The position numbers and the translations under genes were made by a program. Shown piece by piece: positions 12,253 to 21,003 of a stretch of DNA of 21,190 nt. The notes under the pieces are model-generated. The model was not told where the DNA came from and did not search any database. It was given only the letters and a program-made list of their open reading frames with translations. Source of the DNA: Arthrobacter sp. (GTDB lineage: Bacteria > Actinomycetota > Actinomycetes > Actinomycetales > Micrococcaceae); NCBI GenBank assembly GCA_025464925.1, contig JAODMS010000062.1:1-21190 (forward strand). The letters are read 5' to 3'. Position 1 is the stretch's first letter. Each line of letters begins with the position of its first letter.

Positions 12253-13254
12253 CTAGCCCGCGGCCTTCCGCAGCGGAACCACGTCCCCTTCCTGGTACAG
12301 CAGTGCCCGCACCTCGGATTCGGCGGACGCCAGCCGCTTCGGGTCGATCGTCTCGCCGGCCGCGAAATGGTCCAGCAGGCGGGGATCGACATAGCTCTTC
12401 CGGGCGATCGAGGGCGTGTTGCCCAGGACCGCGGCCGCGTCCTGCATCGCACGGCTCACCGCGCTCTTGCGGGCCGCGACCTTGGGTTGCGGCCCGCTCT
12501 TGGCCAGGCTGACGGCCGCGGCGACCGTCCCGCGCAGGGTGCGGAAGTCCTTCGCCGTGAAATCCTCGCCGGTCCGCTCCTTCACGTAGGCGTTGATGTC
12601 GGCGCTCGCTACCGGCTGCCAGCTCCGGCCGTTCCGGTAGGCCAGCAGCCGGGCGTTGCCGCCGCGCCGCTTGAGCTGGCGCACCACGGCGGCGAGGTCG
12701 GCGTCGTCGATCTGCGACTCCCAGTTTTTCCCGCTCTTGGCGGGGAAACTGAGCCTGAGCTGATCCTTGCGCACCGCAACGTGGGCGCAGAGCAGGGTGG
12801 CGAGGCCGTGGCTGCCGTTCTCGTTGGTGTACCTTTCGGAGCCGACCCGCAGCGAACCGCTGTCCAGCATCCGGAAGGCGGCCGCGAGCACGCGTTCGCG
12901 CGTCAGCCCCTCGGAGCGCAGGTCAAGGGTGACGAGGCGGCGCGCGGCCGGCAGGGTTTCCGCGAGCTGGAGTGAGCGGTCGAACTTGAGCCGGTCTTTC
13001 CGCTCCCGCCAGCTTGGATGGTAGATGTATTGGCGCCGGCCCACGGCGTCCACCCCGGTGGCCTGGATGTGGCCGTTGTCGTAGGGCGCGATCCAGACGT
13101 CCGTCCACGCCGGCGGAATGCCGATGCCTTCCAGCCGCTCCCGCACCGGCCCGGCGGGCAGCGTGGAGCCGTCCAGGTCCTTGTAGCTGAAGCCGGTCCC
13201 GGACGGCACCCGGCGGTATCCGCGGCCGGACGCGTTGCTGTGGCGGAGCCTCAT
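12253..13254 (-). CDS. DNA topoisomerase IB (bacterial, poxvirus-like)
   Basis: A 333-residue type IB topoisomerase that would relax supercoils by a 3'-phosphotyrosine intermediate. The N-terminal domain (about 15-95) carries the TDVWIAPYDNGHIQATGVDA stretch typical of the family. The catalytic domain shows an Arg in VGSERYTNENGSHGLATL (R141), a Lys in the hairpin FPAKSGK, the Arg in KDFRTLRGT (R238) and the nucleophile Tyr in SIARKSYVDP (Y288). Length is normal for bacterial TopIB. The ATG at 13254 has a poor SD and overlaps the stop of a 16-codon upstream ORF (ATGA), which may couple its translation. It lies downstream of the fprA-like gene in the same direction after a 105-nt gap. Such enzymes are accessory to TopA and gyrase. 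Confidence 0.9.
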   Translation of the reverse strand: MRLRHSNASGRGYRRVPSGTGFSYKDLDGSTLPAGPVRERLEGIGIPPAWTDVWIAPYDNGHIQATGVDAVGRRQYIYHPSWRERKDRLKFDRSLQLAETLPAARRLVTLDLRSEGLTRERVLAAAFRMLDSGSLRVGSERYTNENGSHGLATLLCAHVAVRKDQLRLSFPAKSGKNWESQIDDADLAAVVRQLKRRGGNARLLAYRNGRSWQPVASADINAYVKERTGEDFTAKDFRTLRGTVAAAVSLAKSGPQPKVAARKSAVSRAMQDAAAVLGNTPSIARKSYVDPRLLDHFAAGETIDPKRLASAESEVRALLYQEGDVVPLRKAAG

Positions 13255-13359: not shown

Positions 13360-14805
13360 TTAGACCTCGATCGCGGCCCCGCGGGAGATCGCCACCATGT
13401 CCTCGCGCGGCACCACCTTGACGCGCTCGCGCGGCACGCCGGCGCCCGTGGCCTTCTCACCGATCGCCCGCTCATGCGCGTCCAGCGCCAGCCAGCCTTC
13501 CCAGCTGGTGTACTGCACGCCGCGGCTCTCCAGAAGCTCGACGACGGCCTCCGGTGCGGGCACCACGGCCAGGGGAAGGTTCACGCGGTCCTCGAGCAGG
13601 TACGTCACGGTTTCGAGGGCATCGCCCTTGGTGTGGCCGATCAGGCCCACCGGGCCGCGCTTGATCCAGCCGGTGGCGTAGATACCCGGCACGTGCGCAC
13701 CGGAGGCGTCCAGGACGCGGCCGCCGTCGTTCGGGACAACTCCCCTGCTGTGGTCGAACTCGACCTCGGGCAGCGCGGAACCGAAGTAGCCGATGGCACG
13801 GTAGACGGCCTGGACGGGGTAGTCGACCAGCTCGCCGGTGCCCCGGGCCCTGCCGGTGCCGTCCAGCTCGGTGCGCTCGAACTTGATCCCGGCGACGCGG
13901 CCTGGGGTTTCGGCGTCGTCGTACACCTCGACCGGGCTGTGCAGGAAGTGCAGGTGCAGGCGGCGGGAGGCCTTGAGCTCGGAGAGGTCCTCGGGCTGCT
14001 CGGCGATCCAGTTGGTGAGGGTTCCCACCATGGTCTTGGTCTGGTTGTTGCTCTGGATCTGGCGGTCCGATTCCTCATCGAACTCGAAGTCCTCGGCGTA
14101 CAGGACGATGTCCACGTCCTTGGAGTGGGACAGCTCGCGCAGTTCCAGCGGGGTGAACTTCACCTGCGCGGGGCCGCGGCGGCCAAAGACGTGCACGTCC
14201 GTGACGGGCGAGTTCTTCAGGCCGGCGTAGACGTTGTCCGGGATTTCGGAGACGAGCAGGTCGTCGGCGTGCTTGGACAGAACGCGGGCCACGTCCAGGG
14301 CCACGTTGCCGTTGCCGATGACGGCGATTTCTTTGGCGTCCAGCGGCCATTCGCGGGAAACGTCCGGGTGGCCGTCGTACCAGGAGACGAAGTCCGCGCC
14401 CCCGTAGGAGCCGTCCAGCTCGACGCCCGGGATGTTCAGGTCTGCGTCCTTGATGGCGCCGGTGGCGAAGATGACGGCGTCGTAGTGGGTGCGGAGGTCC
14501 TCGATGGAGAGGTCGGTGCCGTAGTCCACGTTGCCGAAGAAGCGGATGTCGCCGCGGTCCAGGAATTTGTGCAGGGCGTTGACGATGCCCTTGAGGCGCG
14601 GGTGGTCGGGGGCCACGCCGTAGCGGATCAGGCCGTAGGGCGCCGGGTAGCGGTCGAAGAGGTCGATGCTGACGGTGAGCTCGCCGCTCTTCACGGCCTC
14701 ACTCTTGGTCAGGAGGTCCGCGGCGTAGACACCGGCGGGGCCGGAGCCGACGACGGCGACGCGCAGCGGGCGGGCAGCGATTCCTGCGGGGGTGCTGATT
14801 GACAC
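13360..14805 (-). CDS. fprA: FprA-type ferredoxin/adrenodoxin-NADP reductase, complete
   Basis: A 481-residue flavoprotein of the FprA/adrenodoxin reductase family, transferring electrons from NADPH to ferredoxin. It shows the FAD motif GSGPAG (20-25), PYGLIRYGVAPDH (56-68), the NADP motif GNGNVA (164-169), FGRRGPAQVKFTP (207-219) and the C-terminal FAD loop GWIKRGPVGLIGHTKGDA. The GTG start has AAGGAA about 8 nt upstream. It lies 74 nt after the siroheme synthase gene, same direction, at the end of the sulfur block. The most likely role is feeding a ferredoxin-dependent sulfite reductase, as proposed for fpr2 in the C. glutamicum cys cluster. The window holds a second copy (1-742), about 82% identical. 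Length is in the normal family range. Confidence 0.93.
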   Translation of the reverse strand: MSISTPAGIAARPLRVAVVGSGPAGVYAADLLTKSEAVKSGELTVSIDLFDRYPAPYGLIRYGVAPDHPRLKGIVNALHKFLDRGDIRFFGNVDYGTDLSIEDLRTHYDAVIFATGAIKDADLNIPGVELDGSYGGADFVSWYDGHPDVSREWPLDAKEIAVIGNGNVALDVARVLSKHADDLLVSEIPDNVYAGLKNSPVTDVHVFGRRGPAQVKFTPLELRELSHSKDVDIVLYAEDFEFDEESDRQIQSNNQTKTMVGTLTNWIAEQPEDLSELKASRRLHLHFLHSPVEVYDDAETPGRVAGIKFERTELDGTGRARGTGELVDYPVQAVYRAIGYFGSALPEVEFDHSRGVVPNDGGRVLDASGAHVPGIYATGWIKRGPVGLIGHTKGDALETVTYLLEDRVNLPLAVVPAPEAVVELLESRGVQYTSWEGWLALDAHERAIGEKATGAGVPRERVKVVPREDMVAISRGAAIEV

Positions 14806-16193: not shown

Positions 16194-16254
16194 CGGCGGC
16201 GGAAACACCAGTTCACGCAAGGTAATGCCACGTCACATTGCGTCTGGGGCTGCC

Positions 16255-16383: not shown

Positions 16384-17349
16384 CTAGCGGGTGCTGCCGG
16401 CCAGGAGGCCGCGGCGCCGGAGCAGGCGCTTTTCGATGGGTGCGAAAACAAGCAGCTCGATGAGGATGCCGACGGCGAGGATCAGCAGGATGGCGGCCAT
16501 CACGGTGCTCATGTCCGACAGGACCCGGCCCTGGTCCAGCAGCGAGCCGAGGCCGAAGCCGATGGATCCACCGACCGCGATGATCTCCGCGGCCATCAGC
16601 GAGCGCCAGGAGAACGCCCAGCCCTGTTTGAGGCCGCCCAGATAGCCCGGGAGGGCCGCCGGGAGGATGATCTGCAACGCCAGCTGCAGCCGGGACGCGC
16701 CCAGGACCTTGCCGACGCTGCGGTACTGCGGCGGGATCTGGTCCACGCCGGAGATGAGTCCGTTGATGATGGAGGGAATGGCCCCCATGAACACGACGAA
16801 ATACACCGTGGCGTCGGTCAGGCCGAACCAGATGATCGCGGCCGGCACCCAGGCCACGGACGGCAGCACCTGCAGCCCCGAGATCAGCGGCCCGAAGGCA
16901 CGGCGCAGCGGCGCCACCTGGGCCAGCAGCAGTCCGATGGGAGTGGCGATCGCGACGCTGATCAGGAAGCCCACCACGCCGCGCTGCAGCGAAGTCCAGA
17001 TGGCCTCCTGGGTTTTCCCCTCGCCCCACAGGGTTCCCAGCTGGCCGAGCACGTCCAGCGGGCCGGGCACCAGGTCGCGCCGCTTGATCCCCAGGGACAC
17101 GTACAGCTGCCAGCCGATCAGCAGGACGGCCAGGGCGGCGACCGGAAGCAGGATCCGGCTCCAGTCGATGCGGGCCGCCCGGACGGCGTCGGACTGCAGG
17201 GAGTCGAGCCCGGACTCGAGCTCGCGCAGGTCCGCGGTGCCGGTGGAGGACCGGGTCAGGGCCGCGGTGACCTTCCGGATTTCGCCAGGCATGGCGGTTT
17301 GCTCGGTCGGGACCGCGGTGTCGACCGCCGTTGTGGACTTATGTGGCAT
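16384..17349 (-). CDS. ssuC: Sulfonate ABC transporter permease
   Basis: A 321-residue inner-membrane permease of the BPD transport family, expected to form the channel for aliphatic sulfonates with SsuA and SsuB. About six membrane segments follow a hydrophilic 65-residue N-terminal extension that is longer than in E. coli SsuC (263 residues in total). The EAA loop that contacts the ATPase is visible as YRSVGKVLGASRLQL (209-223) with ILPAALPGYLGGL. The ATG lies inside the end of ssuB (11-nt overlap), so the two are translationally coupled. Taurine or nitrate permeases are close relatives; the sulfonate assignment rests on family resemblance and the cys context. Confidence 0.88.
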   Translation of the reverse strand: MPHKSTTAVDTAVPTEQTAMPGEIRKVTAALTRSSTGTADLRELESGLDSLQSDAVRAARIDWSRILLPVAALAVLLIGWQLYVSLGIKRRDLVPGPLDVLGQLGTLWGEGKTQEAIWTSLQRGVVGFLISVAIATPIGLLLAQVAPLRRAFGPLISGLQVLPSVAWVPAAIIWFGLTDATVYFVVFMGAIPSIINGLISGVDQIPPQYRSVGKVLGASRLQLALQIILPAALPGYLGGLKQGWAFSWRSLMAAEIIAVGGSIGFGLGSLLDQGRVLSDMSTVMAAILLILAVGILIELLVFAPIEKRLLRRRGLLAGSTR

Positions 17350-18064
17350 GGCGGCGAATCTCCTCGCGTAGCCGGGCGGTGATGACGCCGGTCAGCTGTC
17401 CGGCGAGCCCGGCGTCGGTGCGGTGTTCCTCGCTGACATTCCACTCCTCCACCACACGGCCGGGCCTGGAGGAAAGCAGCAGCACGCGCTGGCCCAGCCG
17501 GACGGCTTCGCGGACGTTGTGGGTGACGAACACGATGGTGCGGCCGGTTTCCTTCCAGATCCGTTCCAGCTCGTCATGGAGCAGATCGCGGGTGATGGCG
17601 TCCAGGGCCGCGAAGGGCTCGTCCATGAGGAGCAGCTGCCGGTCCTGGGCCAGGGAGCGGGCCAGCGACACTCGCTGGCGCATGCCGCCGGAGAGCTCAT
17701 GCGGGCGCTTGTCCCCCGCGCCGCCGAGGTGCACCAGATCGAGGAGCTCATTGGCCTTGGCCCGGCGCTCGCTCTTCCGGACGCCGCGCAGCTTCAGGGC
17801 CAGCTCCACGTTCTCCCGGGCCGTCAGCCAGGGGAAGAGGGCCGCGTCCTGGAACATGAAGGCGGCGCCGTCGCTGGGCACTTCCAGGGCGCCCGACGTC
17901 GGGGCCTCCAGTCCCGCCATGATGTTGAGCAGGGTGGACTTGCCGCAGCCGGACGCACCGAGCAGGGCGACGAACTCGCCCCGGCCGATGGTGGCATTGA
18001 CGTCGTCCAGTACCGGGGCGCCGTCGCCGAAGCGCTTGCCCAGGTTTTCCAGTACGACTGGCAT
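17339..18064 (-). CDS. ssuB: Sulfonate ABC transporter ATP-binding protein
   Basis: A 241-residue ABC ATPase energising sulfonate import at the inner face of the membrane. Walker A GASGCGKST (36-44), Q-loop Q72, signature LSGGMRQRV beginning at 124 and Walker B LLLMDE (145-149) are all intact, and FVTHNVREA carries the switch His. The start is taken as ATG 18064, 7 nt after AAGGA; a GTG at 18070 almost abuts that SD and is less likely. It is 40 nt after ssuA and overlaps ssuC by 11 nt. NrtD/TauB relatives share the same motifs. Confidence 0.9.
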   Translation of the reverse strand: MPVVLENLGKRFGDGAPVLDDVNATIGRGEFVALLGASGCGKSTLLNIMAGLEAPTSGALEVPSDGAAFMFQDAALFPWLTARENVELALKLRGVRKSERRAKANELLDLVHLGGAGDKRPHELSGGMRQRVSLARSLAQDRQLLLMDEPFAALDAITRDLLHDELERIWKETGRTIVFVTHNVREAVRLGQRVLLLSSRPGRVVEEWNVSEEHRTDAGLAGQLTGVITARLREEIRRHAT

Positions 18065-18104
18065 GGTCACGTCCTTAGCTTGGTGTGGGGAACCGGTCGC
18101 GGAA

Positions 18105-19247
18105 CTAGTCCTTGCCCAGCCCTTCCGCGGAGATGTTCTTGCCGGTGACGGCGTTCAGGTCCGTGAGGTCGAAGATGCCGTTGATGTCGGCCTGCTTGGT
18201 GGTGCCTGCATCGACGCCGTCCTGGAGCAGTTTCTTGTACGTTCCGGCGAGCGGGTCAACGGTGAAGACGATGTTCTTCAGGGACCGGTCGATGACGTCC
18301 GGCTGGAGTTCGGCCCCGGCGGATTCCTTGAGCGCGGCGTTGAGGACGCTGGCTTTCTCCGCGGCGGGTGCCGCATTGAGCCAGTCCACGGATTCGGCGT
18401 TGCCCTTCAGCAATGCCTTCACGGCGGCCGGGTGCTCGGCCGCGAACTTCTTGTTCACGATCAGGACGGTGGTGATGAACTCGCCCTTCTCCCACAGGTC
18501 CTTTTCGTCGACGAGGACCTTGGCGCCGGCCTGGAGCACCAGGCGGGAGGCCCAGGGCTCCGGCAGCCACGCGCCGTCGAGCTTTCCGTCCTGGAACAGC
18601 TTCAGGGTCTGGGCGTTCTCGCTGGGGTTGATGGCGACGTCTCCGCTGCCGTCCGTGGCGGTCTGGTAGCCCTGATGGCCCAGCCAGGCCCGCAGGGCCA
18701 CGTCCTGGGTGCCGCCGAGCTGCGGCGTCGCCAGCGTCCTGCCCTTCAGGTCCGCCGCCGAGCTGATTTCAGGCTTCACGACCAGCTGCGCGCCGCCGGC
18801 CGCGGCGCCGGCGATGATGCTGATCGATTCGCCGTTGCTCTTGACGTAGGAGTTGATCGCGGGGTTGGGGCCGATGTAGGTGGCGTCGATGGCGCCGGCG
18901 TTGAGGGCTTCGATGGCGGCGGGGCCGGCGTTGAAGGCCTGCGTGCTGAGCTTGGTTTCGCCCAGGTTCTTGGTGAGAAGGCCCTTGCTGAGCCCGACGA
19001 GGGCCGGGGCGTGGGTGATGTTGCCGAAGTAGCCGAGCCTGAGTTCGGCGGCCGGACGGGGGTCCGATGCGGGCGCGGGTTCGGAGCCCCGGGACACGGT
19101 GGATGCCACGGCGGCACCGGCACCGATCAGCAGGGCGAGGCCTGCCGCGAGGCTGATCTCAAGGGTGCGCTTGCGTTTCGGCTTGCCGGTCTCGCCGGCG
19201 ACGATCCGGGTGGTGCCGGGTGTGCGATTTTCTTGCGTGGATGACAT
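18105..19247 (-). CDS. ssuA: Sulfonate ABC transporter substrate-binding protein
   Basis: A 380-residue periplasmic-type binding protein for aliphatic sulfonates. A long basic N terminus (1-29, PKRKR) precedes a hydrophobic segment (30-52), followed by an Ala/Pro-rich linker. There is no lipobox Cys, so it is either cleaved by signal peptidase I or membrane-anchored. The mature part begins LRLGYFGNITHAPALVGLS (69-87), typical of the SsuA/NMT1-like fold, with YIGPNPAIN and GAWLPEPWAS further on. Start ATG with AAAAGGA 8 nt upstream. It is the first gene of ssuABC, preceded by a strong promoter and a small leader ORF. Close relatives bind taurine, nitrate or thiamine precursors; the cys context favours sulfonates. 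Confidence 0.9.
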   Translation of the reverse strand: MSSTQENRTPGTTRIVAGETGKPKRKRTLEISLAAGLALLIGAGAAVASTVSRGSEPAPASDPRPAAELRLGYFGNITHAPALVGLSKGLLTKNLGETKLSTQAFNAGPAAIEALNAGAIDATYIGPNPAINSYVKSNGESISIIAGAAAGGAQLVVKPEISSAADLKGRTLATPQLGGTQDVALRAWLGHQGYQTATDGSGDVAINPSENAQTLKLFQDGKLDGAWLPEPWASRLVLQAGAKVLVDEKDLWEKGEFITTVLIVNKKFAAEHPAAVKALLKGNAESVDWLNAAPAAEKASVLNAALKESAGAELQPDVIDRSLKNIVFTVDPLAGTYKKLLQDGVDAGTTKQADINGIFDLTDLNAVTGKNISAEGLGKD

Positions 19248-19290
19248 GGCGGGGATCCTTTTCTGGAATGTGCATGGGCCGGGCGGGTGG

Positions 19291-19359
19291 TCAGCGCCGG
19301 CGACATCGCCCCTGGGTTTCCCGGCCGGGGCGGCCGGGGAACGGTTCCGTTGTTGTCAT
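19291..19359 (-). CDS. Predicted leaderless leader peptide of ssuA (22 codons, one Cys near the end)
   Basis: ATG at 19359 begins exactly 6 nt after a TATGGT -10 element, so translation would start at the mRNA 5' end. The ORF encodes 22 residues, beginning MTTTEPFPGR and ending GRCRRR, with a single Cys codon (TGT, codon 19) four codons before the TGA. Its stop is 43 nt upstream of ssuA. A GC-rich hairpin (19318-19341) lies inside it, and the Cys codon falls in a second small stem (GGCGA/TCGCC). Actinobacteria are known to place short Cys-containing leader peptides ahead of sulfur genes, which supports a regulatory role. It is too short to be certain from sequence alone. Confidence 0.5.
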   Translation of the reverse strand: MTTTEPFPGRPGRETQGRCRRR

Positions 19360-19365
19360 GGTTTC

Positions 19366-19395
19366 ACCATAGGGAGTGTCATAAACGCGGTTCAA
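19366..19395 (-). promoter_or_regulatory. ssuA operon promoter with flanking small palindromes
   Basis: Minus strand: TTGAAC (19395-19390), 18-bp spacer, TATGGT (19371-19366); transcription would begin near 19359. A perfect palindrome ATGGT-TTC-ACCAT (19358-19370) covers the -10 and start site, and GTTC-CATT-GAAC overlaps the -35. These are candidate sites for a sulfur regulator (CysR/McbR type by analogy, not identified). Confidence 0.65.
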
Positions 19396-19445
19396 TGGAA
19401 CGGAAACCCGGGGTCACGCGCGTTCACGGAGCGTCACATTCGGGG

Positions 19446-19501
19446 CAAAAAACAGCAGCGTGTTTCCCGGACCGGCGCGGGGCGGTCCGGGAAACACGCT
19501 G
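19446..19501 (-). terminator. Strong intrinsic terminator of cysDN
   Basis: A perfect 19-bp stem (19456-19474 with 19483-19501) and 8-nt loop, 8 nt after the cysN stop. It is followed on the minus strand by CTG and a run of six T. It separates cysDN transcription from the ssu operon. Confidence 0.92.
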
Positions 19502-19509
19502 CGGGACCC

Positions 19510-21003
19510 TCAGATCGAGTAGCGCTCGTCCTCGTGGTCGCCCGGATGGCCGGTGACCAGGCCGGCGGCCAGGGTGTTTCCGTCCAGCGGGTCGATCACC
19601 AGGAACGCCCCGGTGCGGCGGTGGTGCAGGTAGTTCTCCACCGGCAGCGCAGCCGCCAGCCGGAGCTGGGCCTGGCCGATGTCGTTGAGTTCCAGCGTGG
19701 AGGTGGGCTCCAGCTGGAAGCTGGCGAGGTCCAGTTTCCCGGTCACGTTCCGGACCATGGCCTGGACCGTGCGGGTGCCGTGCTTGACCAGCACCTTGGC
19801 GCCTTCGCGGAGCGGTTTGGGCGAGAGCCAGCACAGCGCCGCATACAGGTCGGCCGAGGCCTCCCGGATCGTTCCGGCCGCCGCGATCGTGTCGCCGCGG
19901 GCGATATCGAATTCGTCGGCCAGGCGCAACGCCACGGACTGCGGGGCTGCGGCCTCGGTGAGTTCGGCCCCCGCGAAGTCGATGCCGGCCACCGTGGTGG
20001 TGCGCGGCGCCTGGCCGGGGGTCAGGACACTGACCTGGTCCCCCAGCTTCACCGAGCCCTCGGTGATCTGGCCCGCGTAGGCCCGGTAATCCCGGTAGGC
20101 TTCCACGTCGAGTCCGCCGGCGACGGCGTCGGGAGCCAGCGCCCCCTGCGGCCGGATAATAAGCTGCACCGGGAAGCGGAAGCTCTCCAGCTCGCTCTCG
20201 AGTTCGTCGGCGGCCGGCAGCGTCTCCAGGACTTCCAGCAGGGCCGGGCCGTCATACCAGGGCGTCCGCTCCGAGCGGTCCACGACGTTGTCGCCGTCGA
20301 GCGCGGAGACGGGAACCACCAGCAGGTCGGCGATCCCGGCATCGCCGTCCGCGCCGGCTTCGGCGGAGCGCAGCCCGAGTTCGCCGGCGACCTTCCGGAC
20401 GTCCGTTTCGATCTCCCGGAACACCGCCTCGCTGAAGTCCACGAGGTCGATCTTGTTCACGGCCACAATCACGTGCGCCACCCGCAGCAGCTGCAGCACG
20501 GACAGGTGGCGGCGGGTCTGCTCCAGGACACCCTTGCGGGCGTCGATGAGCACGACGACGGCGTCCGCGGTGGACGCCCCGGTCACCGTGTTCTTGGTGT
20601 ACTGCACGTGGCCGGGGCAGTCGGCGAGGATAAAGCTGCGCCGGTCCGTGGCGAAGTAGCGGTAGGCGACGTCGATGGTGATGCCCTGTTCCCGCTCGGC
20701 GCGCAGCCCGTCGGTCAGCAGCGCCAGGTCGATCGCCTGCGTGCCGGTGGCGCCTGCGCCGCCGAAGCCGCGGTCCGCCGAGGTCCGGGCGACGGCGGCG
20801 AGCTGGTCGGCGAGGATCGCCTTGGAGTCGTGCAGGAGCCGGCCCACCAGGGTGGACTTGCCGTCGTCGACCGAGCCGGCGGTGGCGAAGCGGAACAGCG
20901 TCCCCACCGGCTCCCTCACCTCGCTCCGCTCGGCCAGGGAACCCTGCCGGCGTGGGCCCACATTGGTTGCGGTGATTGAGCCTGTCGAAATCGACGAAGT
21001 CAT
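19510..21003 (-). CDS. cysN: Sulfate adenylyltransferase subunit 1 (GTPase subunit)
   Basis: A 497-residue GTPase subunit that drives ATP sulfurylase: with CysD it makes APS from sulfate and ATP. EF-Tu-like G domain: P-loop GSVDDGKST (43-51), DCPGH (128-132), NKID (183-186) and SALDGDN near 233, followed by the two beta-barrel domains. The protein ends after these, so no APS kinase (CysC) is fused. The ATG shares one base with the cysD stop (TAATG), so translation is coupled. The N terminus is odd: residues 4-34 are encoded by repeat-like sequence (see the repeat at 20906-20995) and push the conserved FRFATAGS start to residue 37, later than in typical CysN. A strong terminator follows the gene. 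Confidence 0.95.
   Translation of the reverse strand: MTSSISTGSITATNVGPRRQGSLAERSEVREPVGTLFRFATAGSVDDGKSTLVGRLLHDSKAILADQLAAVARTSADRGFGGAGATGTQAIDLALLTDGLRAEREQGITIDVAYRYFATDRRSFILADCPGHVQYTKNTVTGASTADAVVVLIDARKGVLEQTRRHLSVLQLLRVAHVIVAVNKIDLVDFSEAVFREIETDVRKVAGELGLRSAEAGADGDAGIADLLVVPVSALDGDNVVDRSERTPWYDGPALLEVLETLPAADELESELESFRFPVQLIIRPQGALAPDAVAGGLDVEAYRDYRAYAGQITEGSVKLGDQVSVLTPGQAPRTTTVAGIDFAGAELTEAAAPQSVALRLADEFDIARGDTIAAAGTIREASADLYAALCWLSPKPLREGAKVLVKHGTRTVQAMVRNVTGKLDLASFQLEPTSTLELNDIGQAQLRLAAALPVENYLHHRRTGAFLVIDPLDGNTLAAGLVTGHPGDHEDERYSI
20906..20995. repeat. Repeat-like element translated within the cysN N terminus
   Basis: Two parts: an imperfect palindrome whose ends are GGCTCCCT and AGGGAACC (20909-20943) around a CTCGCTCCGCTCGG core, and GATTGAGCCTGTCGAAATCG (20974-20993). 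Both resemble short palindromic elements (GAGCCTGTCGAAA type) that I recall as scattered in Micrococcales genomes. Here they are in frame and coding. No second copy lies in the window, so the repeat claim rests on recollection. Confidence 0.45.

Follow-up and report, generated by a model that had tools for sequence, protein, structure and literature searches.

The question raised by this locus is whether a 22-codon open reading frame with a single Cys codon, which stands ahead of ssuABC in Arthrobacter sp., serves as a cysteine-responsive attenuator of these genes. In the window, i.e. the whole stretch of 21,190 nucleotides that was analysed, cysN lies upstream of the unit formed by the upstream ORF (uORF) and ssu, and cysG lies downstream. 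The features around the leader are, in the order of transcription:

19455 to 19502, minus strand: terminator-like stem of 20 pairs with a T run, after cysN and before the ssu promoter
19413 to 19436, minus strand: upstream site TGACG-N5-TGAAC-N3-CGTGAC, conserved and possibly bound by a sulfur regulator
19366 to 19395, minus strand: promoter TTGAAC-N18-TATGGT with the uORF ATG 6 nt on (spacing kept in 65/65 loci)
19291 to 19359, minus strand: uORF, probably leaderless, encoding MTTTEPFPGRPGRETQGRCRRR (same promoter position in 41/81 loci)
19303 to 19308, minus strand: CGA-TGT dicodon (Arg18-Cys19), invariant, the proposed ribosome pause site (35/35 distinct uORFs)
19278 to 19301, minus strand: H1, a stem-loop immediately behind the Cys codon, with the uORF stop inside (stop-enclosing stem in 73/74 loci)
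19256 to 19261, minus strand: Shine-Dalgarno (SD) sequence AAAGGA of ssuA, 8 nt before the ATG
18105 to 19247, minus strand: ssuA, substrate-binding protein (NCBIfam TIGR01728, 175 bits against a cut-off of 163.5)
17339 to 18070, minus strand: ssuB-like ABC ATPase (profile match; subunit named by position)
16384 to 17349, minus strand: ssuC-like permease (profile match; subunit named by position)

The anatomy that an earlier note had described for this leader is confirmed by the sequence in every part. TTGAAC (19395-19390) is followed by 18 nt, TATGGT (19371-19366), GAAACC and the ATG at 19359, from which 22 codons with Cys at position 19 are read on the minus strand to a TGA ending at 19291, and the stop lies 43 nt before the ssuA ATG (19247). 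A generic sigma-70 scan called 0 promoters, with TTGAAC-N18-TATGGT scoring below its threshold, and the 22-residue peptide, a very short query, matched 0 families in NCBIfam and Pfam. Elsewhere in the window, two similar flavoprotein oxidoreductases are encoded about 13 kb apart (2-742 and 13360-14805, minus strand); both share GPAGVYAAD near the N-terminus and the one at 2-742 matches Pyr_redox_2. A gene for a bacterial topoisomerase IB lies near the sulfur genes (12253-13254, minus strand).

Relatives were taken from an SsuA scan of the GTDB contig collection, the best 80 of 292 being kept, which together with the window gave 81 loci; these are related to one another and their counts overstate independence. 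The uORF is found in 41 loci, 24 have a directly leaderless ssuA, in which the ATG 6 nt downstream of the same promoter is the ssuA start itself, 15 are without the promoter near ssuA (including L003, whose contig starts 83 nt upstream), and one, L057, has a leader but no Cys uORF. The promoter of L057 is of the same type, and the ORF from its ATG is devoid of the Cys motif and runs into ssuA in another frame. The uORF is present in 41 of the 42 loci that have both promoter and leader, the window included. The first selection of these 41 uORFs required an ATG ORF ending in G/R-R-C plus 0-3 residues, which built Cys and frame into the selection. When these 81 loci were searched for the promoter, an ATG and CGATGT without regard to frame, 41 matches were returned, all of them uORF loci and all in frame. 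The alignment of ssuA upstream regions proposed in the earlier note bears out its expectation that ATG, frame and Cys codon are kept, with 41/41 of the first loci and 33/34 of the further distinct leaders in frame; the gene behind the leader matches SsuA in 33/33 tested further leaders. The exception is L141, which keeps the RNA element but, one base shorter than its kin, has lost the uORF frame and Cys; this is either a test case provided by nature or an error of sequencing. L141 was excluded from the codon, stem, anti-SD, pair-probability and stalled-ribosome folding counts.

The pattern of promoter, ATG and CGATGT is found once per positive genome, in 79/206 genomes of the genus and in 7/295 genomes spread over the family, and a reversed control pattern had 0 matches in the same genome searches. 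The short CGATGT pattern alone is too weak for far searches, as it gave extra matches elsewhere in 2/5 genomes. Across the order, SsuA was sought in 248 genomes, 34 matched, and 25 loci were without a leaderless Cys uORF within 330 nt before the match, a weak negative given that several SsuA matches begin inside the protein and 3 of the 25 are close relatives. Two types of uORF are distinguished among the first 41 loci. Clade A, the type of the window, has 22-23 codons ending in ...QGRCRRR (18 loci), and its sister clade B has 15-18 codons, encoding MTSPEWSLLALDGRCHGA and the like (23 loci). This comparison establishes the uORF as a genuine, conserved feature with a single Cys codon in an invariant context as its core. 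A chance ORF without function, lying in a conserved promoter region, would fit the 24 loci that have the same promoter and no uORF, but it is very improbable, as the frame, the Cys, the codons and the stem-loop are kept across divergent leaders.

The spacing between the -10 box and the ATG is 6 nt in 65/65 loci with the promoter (41 uORF and 24 direct), a figure that is partly built in for the 24 direct loci, which were selected with a spacing-limiting regular expression, and that uses the upstream one of two in-frame ATGs in the uORF loci L050 and L063. Because of this spacing, and because ssuA itself starts at that place in the 24 direct loci, transcription probably starts at the uORF ATG, i.e. 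the uORF is probably leaderless.

The Cys codon TGT is preceded by CGA in 35/35 distinct uORFs of the first 41 loci, and GGG precedes CGA in 32/35; codon invariance was counted only on these loci because the 34 further leaders were drawn with a pattern that requires CGATGT. Both codons are nearly absent elsewhere: in nine coding sequences of the window CGA accounts for 1/242 Arg codons and TGT for 0/13 Cys codons, and in the ssuA genes of the 81 loci CGA accounts for 11/745. The uORF holds one Cys in 39/41 loci and two in 2/41. The tail after Cys varies; it is RRR in 12/41 and otherwise HGA, RRA, RGA, YGA, CGT and others, and in 4/74 loci the stop follows Cys immediately, with the RNA sequence behind the stop nonetheless kept. 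The frame as far as the Cys codon, and the RNA past it, thus seem to be what selection maintains, an argument against the Arg run having a role. Arg-run stalling, which the earlier note had offered, was rejected because the tail is not conserved and is absent in 4/74 loci; of the single-Cys design with a terminal Arg cluster in that note, the single Cys holds for 39/41 loci and the Arg cluster is not conserved.

Conservation that crosses the stop codon also raises an alternative, in which the conserved entity is an RNA element, formed by the stem-loops around GGGCGATGT, that is bound by a protein or small molecule, with the ORF and its Cys codon as by-products. The near-invariant block of clade A, which covers about 36 nt of coding and non-coding sequence around H1, would be expected of such an element, as would the invariance of CGA-TGT and the conservation of GGG (32/35) at synonymous positions and the retention of sequence after Cys even where the frame stops. 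It is nevertheless unlikely, since the ATG is always at the promoter-defined place and its distance to CGATGT in 74 loci is 39, 45, 51 or 54 nt, all multiples of 3, in agreement with the in-frame counts given above. Rfam covariance models likewise had 0 matches in the window above the gathering score.

The preferred reading is that the ribosome reads the Cys codon as a sensor, and the tRNA set suggests how the invariant pair could matter. In G416, a uORF-bearing clade B genome and the one genome typed, 55 tRNA matches include tRNA-Arg with anticodons ACG, CCG, CCT and TCT, and tRNA-Cys with GCA only. A passage of PMC3711424 gives tRNA position A34 as inosine in most bacteria. From the tRNA-Arg and tRNA-Cys anticodon set of G416, CGA is predicted to be read by the A34 tRNA through wobble and UGU through G-U wobble, so that both codons are wobble-read. 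The CGA-UGU pair would then be slow to translate here.

Right behind the Cys codon, the RNA of 73/74 loci is predicted to fold a stem around the uORF stop. The z score of this stem has a mean of -1.28 and a median of -1.02, with 38/74 loci below -1 and the window at -0.9. The arms of H1 vary by type (GCCGG.GC/GC.CCGGC; GCAGGGC/GCCCTGC; CGGGGC/GCCCCG), and the predicted stem differs and is weaker in L118, L133, L146 and L147. One base pair of H1 has both sides changed, and the RNAalifold covariation terms are small (+0.19 and -0.3). The whole 112-nt leader of the window is no more stable than its shuffles (z of -0.17, with 91/200 shuffles as good). The GC-rich hairpin that the earlier note placed inside the uORF does fold, at 19320-19338; as a switch it was rejected, as it lies in a variable region and the whole-leader z is that of shuffled sequence.

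A step from a paused ribosome to ssuA is predicted in clade B. Nucleotides 17-23 of the clade B uORF (GGTCCTT, codons 6-8) pair with the ssuA SD with at least 6/7 pairs in 47/48 loci, and six shifted registers used as a control gave 0/48 loci each. The SD core in the free leader has a mean unpaired probability of 0.05 (48 loci); in the first 23 clade B loci it is 0.10 in the native leader vs. 0.45 after shuffling of the uORF. When a ribosome is placed at Cys, the unpaired value depends on the footprint, being 0.08 with the edge at P-15, 0.34 at P-18 and 0.37 beyond, and at P-18 a rise of at least 0.2 is seen in 42/48 loci. A ribosome at the uORF stop leaves the SD at 0.06, and stalled plus queued ribosomes give 0.39. 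The near-loss of the effect at P-15 also appears in the accessibility calculation on the first 41 loci. These foldings predict that clade B has a translational attenuator in which a ribosome at Cys, and not one at the stop, frees the SD, on the condition that its footprint extends 18 nt back from the P site or that a second ribosome is queued. RNAalifold additionally finds that the anti-SD segment can instead pair with the 3' end of the uORF, with 11 pairs in all and none changed on both sides, which could represent an alternative state in clade B.

The leader of the window behaves differently in the same calculations. In clade A the SD is not sequestered, its unpaired value being 0.39 free and 0.39 with a stalled ribosome (26 loci). 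The fold of the window leader with and without a ribosome, suggested in the earlier note, gave 0.32 free vs. 0.30 stalled, and its proposal that a stall changes leader folding is upheld as a prediction for clade B and gains no support at the SD of the clade to which the window belongs. The energy for opening the ribosome-binding site (RBS), calculated like the accessibility on the first 41 loci only, is in the window 8.2 kcal/mol free, 6.5 kcal/mol with a ribosome at Cys, 5.1 kcal/mol with one on the uORF start and 8.3 kcal/mol with one at the stop, and the clade A mean (18 loci) changes from 7.1 free to 6.6 kcal/mol with a ribosome at Cys. None of the three measures applied, namely accessibility, the energy of RBS opening and pair probabilities, showed SD sequestration as a feature of clade A, and it was rejected for this clade.

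A possible long-range pairing between the 5' AUGACA and UGUCAU at the ssuA start, with a mean probability of up to 0.29 in clade A, accounts for part of the drop in the window. On this pairing rests another explanation, translation coupling only, in which the pairing is opened by a ribosome that initiates at the 5' AUG and no cysteine is sensed. The lower opening energy of the window when a ribosome occupies the uORF start (5.1 against 8.2 kcal/mol) is in line with such coupling, but the pairing is weak on the clade average and the invariant CGA-TGT is left unexplained, which makes this explanation quite improbable.

Between the uORF stop and the first part of ssuA the RNA is rich in C and poor in G, and Rho-dependent transcription attenuation is for this reason a serious rival for clade A. 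Here Rho would load on this RNA between the uORF stop and the ssuA start after fast translation of the uORF and terminate transcription, and ribosomes paused at Cys, or queued, would prevent this. The region from the uORF stop to ssuA +45 averages 0.47 C and 0.17 G (41 loci), and the C minus G value around the window ssuA start is reached by 6/283 windows along ssuABC. There is no intrinsic terminator on the transcribed strand between uORF and ssuA, and the sole minus-strand terminator-like site in 19000-19700 is that at 19455-19502, before the promoter. A passage of Seliverstov 2005 (PMC1262725) proposes Rho for mycobacterial cys leaders. The C-rich starts may, however, reflect Pro-rich SsuA N-termini, and as an account of the leader Rho attenuation is somewhat unlikely.

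We favor, with moderate confidence, a reading in which one Cys codon of a leaderless leader ORF acts as the sensor of cysteine supply. The uORF, its frame, its Cys codon, the dicodon, the stem-loop and the clade B pairing are results of sequence comparison, from which we infer the transcription start, the pausing, the cysteine response and the direction of control. Transcription would begin at the uORF ATG, and ribosomes would load on the 5' end and translate to the invariant CGA-UGU pair, both codons of which would be wobble-read. With Cys-tRNA plentiful, the ribosome would go on to the stop and leave; with Cys-tRNA short, it would pause just ahead of H1, which encloses the uORF stop. The pause would block the default leader fold and raise ssuABC expression. 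In clade B the predicted output is that uORF codons 6-8, which sequester the ssuA SD, are covered by the paused ribosome. Judged by its precedents, which use runs, a single Cys codon makes a weak sensor, and this counts against the favored reading, as do the unsequestered SD of clade A, the whole-leader z, the near-loss of the clade B effect at P-15, the loci L057 and L141, and the number of changes between leader types described below. A more specific proposal, held tentatively and at less than even confidence, is that the single codon is made sensitive by its slow context, with CGA (I-A wobble) in the P site and UGU (G-U wobble) in the A site before the stem-loop. Under this proposal the sensor arose inside Arthrobacter-type bacteria, separately from the polycysteine leaders of mycobacteria, when a uORF came to stand between a leaderless promoter and the gene it drives, and the clades were wired to different outputs, SD release in one and another, perhaps Rho, in that of the window.

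The distribution of leader types has a bearing on this history. In a quick SsuA tree, which is unrooted, leaves out L057 and does not distinguish gain from loss, the uORF and direct leaderless states need at least 6 changes. The closest ssuA relative of the window, L016 (SH-aLRT 98), is of the direct type without uORF, which likewise counts against the favored reading. A second, close ssuA copy without promoter or uORF accompanies five loci (L018/L024, L023/L027, L030/L042, L032/L037 and L055/L053), and ssuA copies within one genome seem to be under different control. In L005 and L017 the ssuA N-termini resemble a clade A uORF start joined directly to ssuA, as would be expected if the remainder of the leader had been deleted.

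Upstream of the promoter, the starts of the ssu unit, cysG and sir, which are presumed leaderless, are each preceded at about 77 nt by a similar site (TGACG...CGTGA). The related site of cysG is 77-78 nt before the start with 3 mismatches in 36/41 cysG starts, and a similar site with 4 mismatches precedes 16/16 sir starts; in a random control 15/2000 intervals reach at most 3 mismatches. The window holds copies at 19413-19436 and 16212-16235 (minus strand). TGACG...CGTGA is possibly a common sulfur regulator site, and because ssu, cysG and sir share it at a similar distance from their presumed starts, the uORF looks like an extra layer over a common sulfur promoter. The palindrome ATGGTGAAACCATGA was considered as a conserved operator and rejected, since it was present in 1 of the 182 loci fetched at that stage.

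Canestrari et al. 2020 (Mol Microbiol) reportedly described leaderless polycysteine short-ORF attenuators of mycobacteria. For such ORFs, passages of PMC9031893 and PMC13236596 propose that pausing at Cys codons opens a downstream ribosome-binding site. Compared with what these passages describe, the ssu leader is alike in being a short ORF, probably leaderless, ahead of sulfur or cysteine genes and, in clade B only, in its SD pairing in silico. It differs in having one Cys codon (39/41) where the mycobacterial leaders have a run, in the invariant CGA before UGU, in its place at ssu in Arthrobacter-type genomes and, for the clade of the window, in the lack of predicted SD sequestration. The ssu uORF is best read as a variant that would work like the mycobacterial polycysteine leaders, and it was not filed as a member because two features are missing, the Cys run and, in the clade of the window, the predicted SD sequestration. 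Excerpts of Shell 2015 (PMC4633059) describe conserved leaderless uORFs with Cys clusters in mycobacteria, ahead of cysA2, Rv0485 and nirA. Like the probably leaderless ssu uORF, they are small ORFs placed first in a sulfur-related mRNA, and they differ in their Cys-codon clusters and their genes. The LEU element upstream of actinobacterial leuA, in the part of Seliverstov 2005 (PMC1262725) that treats it, has a uORF segment that pairs with the downstream SD, as in clade B, but it uses a leucine-codon run and a pseudoknot and belongs to a different pathway. In other known leaders of sulfur genes, which have a short ORF with Cys codons close to its stop, no intrinsic terminator was seen either; they carry runs of Cys codons, unlike the one codon here, and their genes and families differ. 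Classical trp-type attenuators have an intrinsic terminator between leader ORF and first gene, which is absent here. Among the matches listed from open-licence PMC, there was no report of such an element.

If the favored reading is true, cysteine-responsive leaderless attenuation would reach beyond the groups named in the papers cited here, and one codon would suffice as a sensor when it stands in a slow context. The natural variants, namely a stop right after Cys, a broken frame, sister loci without the uORF and two output wirings, make the mechanism testable.
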